This document shows, one piece after another, positions 3,619 to 16,953 of a stretch of DNA of 16,953 nucleotides. Made by a program: the position numbers and the translations under genes. The stretch covers positions 1-16,953 of the forward strand of contig CAJWBV010000004.1 in NCBI GenBank assembly GCA_913020275.1, read 5' to 3'. Position 1 is the first letter of the stretch. Each line of letters begins with the position of its first letter. Below the pieces are notes generated by a model. That model was not told where the DNA came from. It saw only the letters and a program-made list of their open reading frames with translations, and did not search any database. Source of the DNA: an uncultured Rhodobiaceae bacterium. Its GTDB lineage: Bacteria; Pseudomonadota; Alphaproteobacteria; RS24.

Positions 3619-6522
3619 CTATCCATCTTCCGCTTGCGGATCACCGGCACCATCATCGTCCTCACCGACTTCACCATCCTCATCATCATTGGCCTCGCCC
3701 AAACGGGCCACTGAAACCACGCTCGCGTCTTCTTCTGTCTTGAATATGGTCACGCCCTGCGTGTTGCGCCCGGCGATACGCACATCGTCAACCGGACACC
3801 GGATCAATGTGCCATTATCCGAAACCAGCATGACCTGATCGCTGTCTTCAACCGGAAACGCTGCCAGCAAATCGCCGTTACGCTCGGTAAGGGTCATGGC
3901 GATAATACCCTTACCGCCGCGCCCGGACACGCGATACTCATAGGCCGAAGACCGCTTGCCATAGCCATTGGCACTGATGGTCAGAATAAACTGCTCGGCT
4001 GCCCCCAATTCGGCATAACGCTCGGCAGACAACGCGGTGGTTTCTTCGCCACCTTCATCATCCGCAGCGATTTCTTCGACCTCGGCCTCGCCCTCTTCGG
4101 CTGCCGCCCGACGAATGGCCGCCGCCTGACGCAAATAGGTGTTGCGCTCCGCCGGTGTTGCATCACTATGGCGCAAAATCGCCAGTGATATCACCTCGGC
4201 ACCTTCGGCCAGCTTGATGCCGCGCACGCCGGTCGAATTGCGACTGCGGAAGACGCGTACGGCCTCGACCGGAAAACGAATGGCGCGTCCGTCCGATGTT
4301 GTCAGCAATACATCATCGTCAGTCCCGCAGGTTTCAACACCGATAATGCGCTCATCCTCATCCGGTTTCATGGCAATTTTGCCGCCGCGATTAATCTGCA
4401 CAAAATCCGACAACTCGTTGCGGCGAATATTGCCGAAACTGGTGGCGAACATGACGTTTAGCGCGCCCCACTGCGTCTCGTCTTCCGGCAGCGCCATGAT
4501 ATCGGCAATGCCTTCACCACTGTCTAGTGGCAGAAGATTGACCAAAGCCTTGCCGCGCGATTGCGGACTGCCGAGGGGCAACTTCCACACTTTCATTTTG
4601 TAAACCATCCCCGTGGTCGAGAAAAACAGCACCGGCTGGTGGGTGTTGGCGACAAAAATGCGGGTGACAAAATCCTCGTCCTTGGTCGCCATGCCCGAGC
4701 GCCCTTTGCCGCCGCGCCGTTGCGCGCGATAGGTCGAAAGCGGCACGCGCTTGATATAACCCGCATGCGATACGGTAACGACCATATCTTCTTGCGGTAT
4801 CAGGGCTTCATCATCCACTTCGCCGTCATGCTCGATAAATTCCGAGCGGCGCGGGGTGGCAAATTCGTCGCGTGTTTCCACCAACTCATCGCGGATAATC
4901 GCCATCACGCGGGTGCGACTGCGTAAAATATCCAGAAGGTCGGAGATTTGCGCGCCCAATTGCTTCAACTCGTCCCCTATTTCGTCACGCCCCATGGCCG
5001 TCAAGCGTTGCAGGCGCAACTCAAGAATGGCGCGGGCTTGTGTTTCGCTCAGCCGATAGGTGCCACCATCGCCCACCTTATGCAACGGGTCATCGATCAA
5101 CGCGACCAGATCGGCCACATCAGCCGCCGGCCAATCGCGCCCCATGAGCTGAACCCGCGCCTCGGCCGGAGATGGTGCCTTGCGGATAAGTCCGATAACC
5201 TCATCAATATTCGCAACCGCAATCGCCAGCCCAACAAGCACATGCGCGCGATCGCGAGCCTTGCCCAGTTCGAATTTTGAACGACGGGTGACAACTTCTT
5301 CGCGGAAAGCGATGAAGGCCTTGAGCATGTCGCGCAAATTCATCAATTGCGGGCGGCCACCGTTCAGTGCCAGCATGTTGGCACCGAAAGACGTCTGCAA
5401 TTGCGAATAGCGGTAAAGTTGGTTGAGCACCACATCCGACACGGCGTCACGCTTCAATTCAACAACAACGCGCATGCCGTGGCGGTCGGATTCATCACGC
5501 AAATCCGATATGCCCTCAATGGTCTTTTCGCGCACCAAATCGGCGATTTTTTCAATCATCGACGCCTTGTTCACCTGATAGGGAATTTCGTGAATGATAA
5601 TCGCTTCGCGGTCTTTCTTAATCTCTTCAATGCTGACACGCCCGCGCATGATAATCGACCCGCGCCCTGTCGTTACCGCAGACCGCGCGCCCGCAGACCC
5701 CAATATGAGCCCTCCGGTCGGGAAATCCGGCCCCGGTACAATCTCCAGCAAATCGGCATCGGAAATATCATCATTGTCGATGAGCGCGAGACACCCGTCC
5801 ACCACCTCGCCCAGATTGTGCGGCGGCACATTGGTCGCCATGCCAACAGCAATGCCATTGGCACCATTGACAAGCAGGTTCGGAAACCGCGCAGGCAAAA
5901 CAACCGGCTCGCGCTCGGAATTGTCATAATTGTCCTGGAAATCAATCGTATCCTTGTCGATATCGTCAAGAAGTGCGTGTGCGGGCTTTGCCATGCGCAC
6001 TTCCGTATAACGCATGGCGGCGGGTGGGTCGCCGTCTACCGAACCGAAGTTGCCCTGCCCGTCAAGCAGTGGCAGGCGCATGGAAAAATCCTGCGCCATG
6101 CGTACCAATGCGTCATAAATCGACTGGTCGCCATGCGGGTGATATTTACCGATAACATCGCCCACTACGCGGGCTGATTTGCGATACGGCTTGTTATAGT
6201 CATAGCCGTTTTCATTCATCGAATGGAGAATGCGCCGATGCACCGGCTTTAGGCCGTCGCGGACATCCGGCAGAGCCCTGGAGACGATTACGCTCATGGC
6301 ATAATCAAGATACGAGGTTCGCATCTCTTCTTCGATATTTACCGGGCTGATATCGCTGCCATCATCATCGCCGCCGAGTGGCCGCGCGCCGGTTCCGGGC
6401 GGAGCGCCCACACCACTTTCGGCTTCGGAAGCACCAATGTCTTCATCGACAGCTTCAGTATCAACGGGCGTGTTATCGTCGTTATTATCGCTCAATTCGG
6501 CACTTTCGGTTGCGGCACTCAA
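3619..6522 (-). CDS. gyrA: DNA gyrase subunit A with acidic N-terminal extension
   Basis: The 967-residue protein is GyrA rather than ParC: it has the GyrA box QRRGGKG and a complete C-terminal DNA-wrapping domain. With GyrB it introduces negative supercoils. The breakage-reunion domain starts at [10 protein letters not shown] (residue ~58). The catalytic tyrosine is Tyr172 (MRYTE). The quinolone region reads [17 protein letters not shown], so the residue at E. coli position 83 is Gln133 here, and Asp137 matches Asp87. Residues 1-57 are an acidic, low-complexity extension absent from E. coli. A Glu-rich insert lies inside the C-terminal domain, and the protein ends in an acidic tail rich in Asp and Glu. 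The chosen start is TTG with no clear ribosome binding site. In-frame TTG (codon 10) and GTG (codon 38) are alternatives, and the core does not need the extension. A stop lies eight codons upstream of the TTG. Confidence 0.96.
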
Positions 6523-15746: not shown

Positions 15747-16070
15747 TTAGCTTTTCTTGGCCGGTTCGCCTTTGGCGCGGACGGAAATAATCATTGATTT
15801 GATAACCGAAACACGGGTGTTTTCGGCAATATCAACTTCAATTTCATCTTCAGCAACTTTCGCCACCTTGCCGACAAGACCGCCTTGCGTGACAACGGTG
15901 TCGCCGCGGCGCAGAGCCTCGACCATATTGGCATGTTCGCGTTGGCGTTTTTGCTGGGGTCGCAAAATCATGAAATAGATAATGGCAAACACCATAACCA
16001 GCGGAAACAGCAACTCGAACAATGAGCCACCGGCGGCGGTAGATTGGGCATAGGCTGGCGATATCAACAT
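15747..16070 (-). CDS. yajC: Sec translocase accessory subunit YajC
   Basis: The 107-residue protein has a short lead (MLISPAYAQS, common in alphaproteobacteria), one membrane helix (~17-36, ending in YFMILRPQQKRQ) and a small cytoplasmic domain with RRGDTVVTQGGLVGKVAKV. It binds SecDF and is usually encoded directly upstream of secD, as here. GGGAG five bases before the ATG gives a strong start. The gene has its own good promoter in the gap after the M23 gene, so yajC-secD-secF form one transcription unit. Confidence 0.96.
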   Translation of the reverse strand: MLISPAYAQSTAAGGSLFELLFPLVMVFAIIYFMILRPQQKRQREHANMVEALRRGDTVVTQGGLVGKVAKVAEDEIEVDIAENTRVSVIKSMIISVRAKGEPAKKS

Positions 16071-16157: not shown

Positions 16158-16171
16158 CGCTCAAATGAGCG
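16158..16171 (-). terminator. Small hairpin over the stop of the M23 gene
   Basis: The minus strand reads CGCTC, ATTT, GAGCG with the TGA stop inside, followed by GGATTTCTTTGTTTT. The stem is five pairs. It could be a weak terminator separating this gene from yajC, which fits the separate promoter at 16100-16128. Confidence 0.3.
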
Positions 16172-16916
16172 TTTTAGGATTAATCGCGCGGGTTCCTTTG
16201 CGCAACTCGAAATGCAATTGCGGACGGTCGACATTTCCCGAACTGCCAACTTCGGCAATAACCTGCCCCTGCTTGACCTTTTCACCGGCGGCTACGCGAA
16301 ACTTCGAGGTGTGCGCATAAGCCGACACCCACCCGTCCGAATGGCGCACGAGCAGAAGATTGCCATAGCCACGCAATTCATTGCCGGCATAAACAACAAC
16401 GCCGTTTTCCGCCGCTTTTATCGGCGCGCCTTCAGGGGCCGCAATGTTAATGCCGTCATTGTGCAGGCCACCGGCTTTCGGCCCGAAATTGGAAATCACC
16501 CGCCCGTCAACTGGAATTAAAAACCTGCCTGCGCGCCGCGGTGTCGGTGCCTTGGCAATCGATTGTGCGGCTTTTGATGTTTGGCGTCTGGGTGCCGGGG
16601 CGCGCGCATCGCCACCGGGCACTTGCAATTCCTGTCCTACCTGAATTGTATATGGCGCTGACAGTCGATTAACGCGCGCAAGTGACGCCACATCGGTCCC
16701 ATGGCGACGCGAGATCGCATATAAGGTATCGCCGCGTTGCACGGTGTAGGATTTCGGGCGCGGCAGCTGCACGCGGTCGCCGGGCCTCACCCTAGCCGCG
16801 GCCAAGCCCGCTGCGGACAGGGGCGCCAGCAGCGTGTCTAAGCGATCCTGCAGCTCAGCCCAGGTTTCTCCAGCGCGCTGATTCCAGTATTCAATTTGCT
16901 CTTGGTTCGACGACAT
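16161..16916 (-). CDS. Chimeric ORF: methyltransferase N-terminus joined to LysM + degenerate M23 (NlpD-like) body
   Basis: The 251-residue frame has three parts. Residues 1-49 (MSSNQEQIEYWNQRAGETWA onward, ending RPGDRV) match the start of cytoplasmic class I SAM-dependent methyltransferases, in which RPG-RV is followed by the SAM loop DVGCG; here that loop is absent. Residues ~56-100 are a LysM domain (SYTVQRGDTLYAISRRHGTD to VGQELQVPG) that binds peptidoglycan. Residues ~130-251 are a LytM/M23 domain (NFGPKAGGLHNDGINIA, RGYGNLLLVRH, YAHTS, QLHFEL). The metal ligands of active M23 enzymes align with Asn and Gln (NDGIN for HxGxD; QLH for HLH), so it is probably an NlpD/EnvC-type amidase activator, not an enzyme. 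Such proteins need a signal or lipobox, and none is present. A stop lies in frame seven codons upstream, so no longer start exists. Confidence 0.85.
   Translation of the reverse strand: MSSNQEQIEYWNQRAGETWAELQDRLDTLLAPLSAAGLAAARVRPGDRVQLPRPKSYTVQRGDTLYAISRRHGTDVASLARVNRLSAPYTIQVGQELQVPGGDARAPAPRRQTSKAAQSIAKAPTPRRAGRFLIPVDGRVISNFGPKAGGLHNDGINIAAPEGAPIKAAENGVVVYAGNELRGYGNLLLVRHSDGWVSAYAHTSKFRVAAGEKVKQGQVIAEVGSSGNVDRPQLHFELRKGTRAINPKTLI
16770..16916 (-). other. Methyltransferase-derived 5' segment of the chimera
   Basis: These 49 codons carry the methyltransferase-like part. They include two AGG arginine codons close together (16791-16793 and 16785-16787), whereas CGC dominates in the neighbouring genes. 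The stretch ends at GTG (Val49), right where the SAM-binding loop should begin. The break lies near 16765-16775. Confidence 0.7.
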
Positions 16917-16953
16917 GGTTTTTTTCTCGCTAACTCATACGCTAGCCAGTATC

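Follow-up and report, generated by a model that had tools for sequence, protein, structure and literature searches.

We show that the open reading frame at the right-hand end of this contig, in which a methyltransferase head appears to be fused in frame to a LysM/M23 envelope protein, combines sequences from two different protein parents, and we consider it very probable (roughly 0.94) that the apparent fusion is a metagenome assembly chimera at the contig end, not a gene fusion. That estimate rests on the contig end, the stretch shared at the join and the existence of intact relatives. The window, meaning the whole stretch of DNA analysed, is the entire contig C4 (16,953 bp) of genome G000, an assembly of 1,166,654 bases in 237 contigs that is 74.6% complete and 2.09% contaminated. 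The frame occupies 16161-16916 on the minus strand and codes for 251 aa, starting from an ATG at 16916 with a TGA stop in the same frame seven codons upstream of it, all as the first-pass annotation had described. The nearby window edge to which that annotation drew attention is a true contig end, since the contig stops at 16953, 37 bp past the start codon. Because the window is the whole contig, the portion we read as foreign corresponds to its final ~166-184 bp. The features discussed below are as follows.

15747..16070, minus strand: yajC, native neighbour downstream of the body
16161..16787, minus strand: native body with LysM and LytM/M23, residues 44-251
16770..16787, minus strand: junction, coding for RPGDRV (residues 44-49)
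16788..16916, minus strand: head read as foreign, methyltransferase codons 1-43 (residues 1-43)
16917..16953, minus strand: upstream flank of 37 bp from the ATG to the contig end, presumably foreign too

The body is closely matched by an intact protein. Residues 44-251 are identical at 207 of 208 positions to P0001, a 304-aa alphaproteobacterial LysM/LytM(M23) lipoprotein that represents a cluster with 221 members at 90% identity (longest contig 1,889,079 bp), and residues 1-43 agree with the same protein at 3 of 43 positions in an ungapped comparison. Pfam places a LysM domain at residues 57-100 (64.2 bits; cut-off 20.9) and Peptidase_M23 at residues 153-247 (112.9 bits; cut-off 28.7). P0001 carries a lipobox-like VAAC at residues 17-20, followed by a first LysM-like repeat and then by LRPGDRVQLPRPK; the frame studied here has neither the native lipobox nor that first repeat, and its N-terminus is the methyltransferase head, which bears out the earlier observation that an export signal is absent. 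Of the 120 listed relatives, 101 have a match to a permissive lipobox-like pattern within their first 60 aa, a count made without a chance control. Within the genus, the body is 91-97% identical to its orthologue in G001, G002 and G004, and 78% identical over residues 39-148 in G003, where the match ends at base 3 of the contig. Same-genus matches to the full frame start at residue 42 (G001), 41 (G002), 39 (G003) and 44 (G004), and among the matches listed from the 61 genomes searched, none but the window's own starts before residue 39.

The head has a different set of relatives. When residues 1-49 were searched against 5.8 billion proteins at E<=10, eight proteins matched. Five of these (P0121-P0125, 379 members) are clusters of 271-272-aa SAM methyltransferases with 90-94% identity over all 49 query residues, and the other three, of 283-288 aa, show 54-59% identity over 69-98%. 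Agreement with P0121-P0125 extends over residues 1-43 (39-41 of 43 identical) and is lost over residues 50-90 (1-3 of 41); everything from LDVGCGCGD onward is gone, including SAM-binding motif I, the glycine loop. The first-pass annotation was correct in both of its domain assignments and in describing a two-part protein; the switch between the parents is sharp. A Pfam scan of residues 1-49 alone returned no domain. At the nucleotide level the head agrees with the native locus in three genomes of the genus at 2-8 of 18 positions per block. Neither another copy of the head nor a native methyltransferase parent was found in the source genome: the best same-genus matches reach 42-44% in three of the four genomes, G001 has no match at E<=1, and the DNA of 16770-16953 (head, junction and flank) matches nothing else in G000 at E<=1. 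Weak, short DNA matches to this segment occur at E<=1 in 43 of the 61 genomes, a count that includes G000. Apart from G000, the best lies in G059 (35 nt, 86%, E 2.8e-4) and spans the end of the head together with the junction stretch; no RPGDRV was found when that locus was briefly inspected for it.

Composition and codon usage were tried as a means of telling head from body and failed, the head being too similar to the window. Its GC content is 57%, near that of the rest, and its codon usage is unexceptional overall, with 60 of 902 overlapping 43-codon stretches scoring equal or lower. Two AGG codons in the head had been singled out as deviating from local usage. AGG is indeed scarce locally (6 of 350 Arg codons across 13 window genes), and the codons lie at residues 42 and 44; the second, however, is also present at that place in the same-genus locus L009 and so need not derive from the head.

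The sequence at the join explains why the reading frame survives it. The two parents share RPG[D/E]RV, in the same frame, at residues 44-49: in the lipoprotein family RPGDRVQLP closes the first LysM-like repeat, and in the methyltransferase family RPG[D/E]RV directly precedes motif I (RPGERVLDVGCG), with RPGDHV in P0124 and RSGERV in P0125 as variants. Nucleotide identity to L007, L008 and L009 rises in all three from 6-7 of 18 at 16788-16805 to 15-16 of 18 at 16770-16787. Judged from these alignments, the switch point falls within residues 44-49 (16770-16787). The protein is composite, as had been proposed, but the join lies inside the stretch that the parents share, not exactly at residues 49/50. 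Because the motif is common to both, a crossing anywhere within these 18 nt necessarily stays in frame and leaves a head that ends directly ahead of the SAM loop, the two features that the first-pass annotation had remarked on.

Two loci from the same genus were inspected closely, the comparison that the first-pass annotation had proposed for the M23-yajC region, and both have an intact lipoprotein N-terminus. The gene order is serS-surE-LysM/M23-yajC-secD in L007 and serS-surE-LysM/M23-secD in L008, where yajC falls below the listed size. The window has yajC and then secD downstream of the body, as in L007, and the contig ends where L007 and L008 have surE and serS upstream of the gene. In L007 (955-2133) and L008 (1036-2127) the LysM/M23 open frame extends back across the end of surE, so the frame alone does not fix the true start of the lipoprotein. 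Within G000, in searches that had no positive control inside that genome, surE was not found, and a query for another copy of the lipoprotein N-terminus returned only LysM cross-matches within the same frame. An assembly that is 74.6% complete would be expected to have such gaps, and with neither sequence found in it the true continuation could not be read directly.

Several observations favour an assembly chimera: the contig ends 37 bp past the ATG, the head is 90-94% identical to five database clusters but at best 42-44% to anything matched in the genus, RPG[D/E]RV occurs at the join in either parent, and no other protein with this architecture appears in the lists of 120 relatives for the frame and eight for the head. 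We infer that the joining was done by software, not in a cell, and that the head comes from another organism. In the source organism the contig would run on into the 5' part of the lipoprotein gene and then into surE and serS; the assembler would instead have crossed, at the RPGDRV-coding sequence (some 18 nt at most), into a methyltransferase gene from a different member of the community and run ~166-184 bp further until the contig ended. The joining of assembly graphs by common k-mer sets is named as a recognised cause of chimeric metagenome contigs in a review (PMC7299287), and the stretch shared at the join, the position at a contig end and the make-up from two lineages are consistent with such a cause.

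The first-pass annotation had left open whether a deletion had fused two genes or the assembly was chimeric; the evidence favours the chimera. A genuine fresh fusion, in which a methyltransferase gene was acquired, came to be placed ahead of the LysM/M23 gene in the same orientation and recombined with it at RPGDRV, appears improbable to us. It would account for the preserved frame and for a head with its own ATG and an upstream in-frame stop, the composition of the head is not distinctive, and deletions between short homologous stretches can also arise in cells. Such a history nevertheless requires several events (the gene must be acquired, the region ahead of LysM/M23 rearranged and the two fused), has no independent support, would have to fall no more than 184 bp from a contig end, and has left the join nowhere else among the matches listed from the 61 genomes and the listed database relatives, while a nearly identical intact copy exists in P0001. 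Its product, 43-49 methyltransferase codons followed by LysM/M23 with a foreign start and no export signal, would be cytoplasmic and probably functionless; a genuine join would amount to a single gene-breaking accident of modest interest. Under the chimera reading, the earlier concern that the body is stranded in the cytoplasm is probably moot.

The two other readings that we weighed have, in our judgement, a negligible chance of being right. Were a methyltransferase N-terminal segment a normal part of this LysM/M23 family, full-length relatives would be expected, and none appears among the matches listed; none of the 120 listed relatives of the frame (5292 passed) carries any of three head words of 6-8 residues, all eight relatives of residues 1-49 are proteins of 271-288 aa with a methyltransferase domain and no M23, and we found no point in support of an established architecture, which we reject on the matches listed. 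Equally remote is the idea that the foreign sequence is the body and the head is native. Every chimera does have two parents, but here the body is followed by yajC and secD in the conserved gene order of L007, which contradicts this reading, and its identities to the orthologues in G001-G004 speak for a native origin.

We sought the donor of the head with P0122 as the query; the genome sets are samples, and the empty results below come from searches run without a positive control. Among 385 genomes of the class, 26 matches passed E<=1e-60, the best at 51% identity. Two overlapping draws from the phylum gave one match among 398 genomes at E<=1e-70 and 27 among 349 genomes at E<=1e-50, with a best identity of 49%. 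No match was obtained among 78 genomes of the order of G457 (E<=1e-65), among 78 genomes of its class (E<=1e-70; apparently the same 78), or among 369 genomes of the class of G518 (E<=1e-75). A close copy of the donor gene was not found in any sampled genome set, the best match being 51% identical to P0122. Elsewhere, public genomes gave one 57% relative of the head among the matches listed, in Neoroseomonas soli; viral contigs gave one relative of P0122 at 47%; and among phage records there were 11 short matches, 80-95% identical, the top two of the five listed covering 16% and 17%. The 120 listed relatives of P0122 include proteins with Gammaproteobacteria names, P0151 (89% over 66%), P0144 (63%) and P0188 (57%), as well as proteins named for Pseudomonadales (52%) and Myxococcota (53%). 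P0151 aligns only to P0122 residues 91-270, outside the head, and is therefore uninformative on the head's origin; P0144 is the best Gammaproteobacteria-named protein that covers the head, where it is 58% identical. The names suggest a gammaproteobacterial donor as a lead only. Another methyltransferase match, P0219, shares DGINI with the body, a lone five-residue word.

Two further frames in the window merit mention. The frame at 3619-6522, which we take to be a DNA gyrase A-like protein, has a TTG start, an acidic low-complexity N-terminal stretch and an acidic tail at its end; its true start may lie further in. The frame at 3-296, truncated by the left contig end, presumably encodes a periplasmic metal/cobalamin-binding transport protein.

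As a probable artefact, the apparent fusion has little biological interest. It illustrates that a chance coding match, here RPGDRV in two unrelated families, can make a false fusion at a contig end look clean and in frame, and we suggest that fusions this near contig ends be presumed chimeric unless reads or relatives show otherwise.

The join aside, the body is an ordinary LysM + LytM envelope factor. Its closest solved structure is DipM (7qrl, E 5.2e-35), followed by the M23-family structure 9gy1 and by EnvC (4bh5). Scanned without its native N-terminus, the frame reaches the curated cut-off for none of the 25 NCBIfam models listed; ActS is the best match (192.6 against a cut-off of 375), and the scores for DipM and NlpD are 177.9 against 900 and 152.4 against 311; as no cut-off is passed, we do not assign it to DipM, ActS or NlpD. 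In the M23 domain, HNDGIN (residues 152-157, window 16446-16463) aligns with RNDGLN of DipM and has the same D/N pair. The LytM domain of DipM is reported to have a degenerated active site and to be catalytically inactive (PMC10336132). The likeness between the two motifs suggests degenerate metal ligands and a regulator over a peptidase, and the body is probably a DipM/ActS/NlpD-like regulator of cell-wall hydrolases that does not itself cut peptidoglycan.

The frame can be set beside three known systems. It resembles chimeric metagenome contigs in that two ancestries are joined at a short shared sequence near a contig end. With the 271-272-aa class I SAM-dependent methyltransferases P0121-P0125 it shares the N-terminus, but it lacks the SAM-binding loop LDVGCGCGD and all that follows in those enzymes. 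Finally, LytM regulators of the DipM/ActS/NlpD/EnvC type, which activate amidases or autolysins, have the LysM and C-terminal LytM arrangement found in the body, although the frame itself differs from them in having no native N-terminus and in scoring below the NCBIfam cut-offs.
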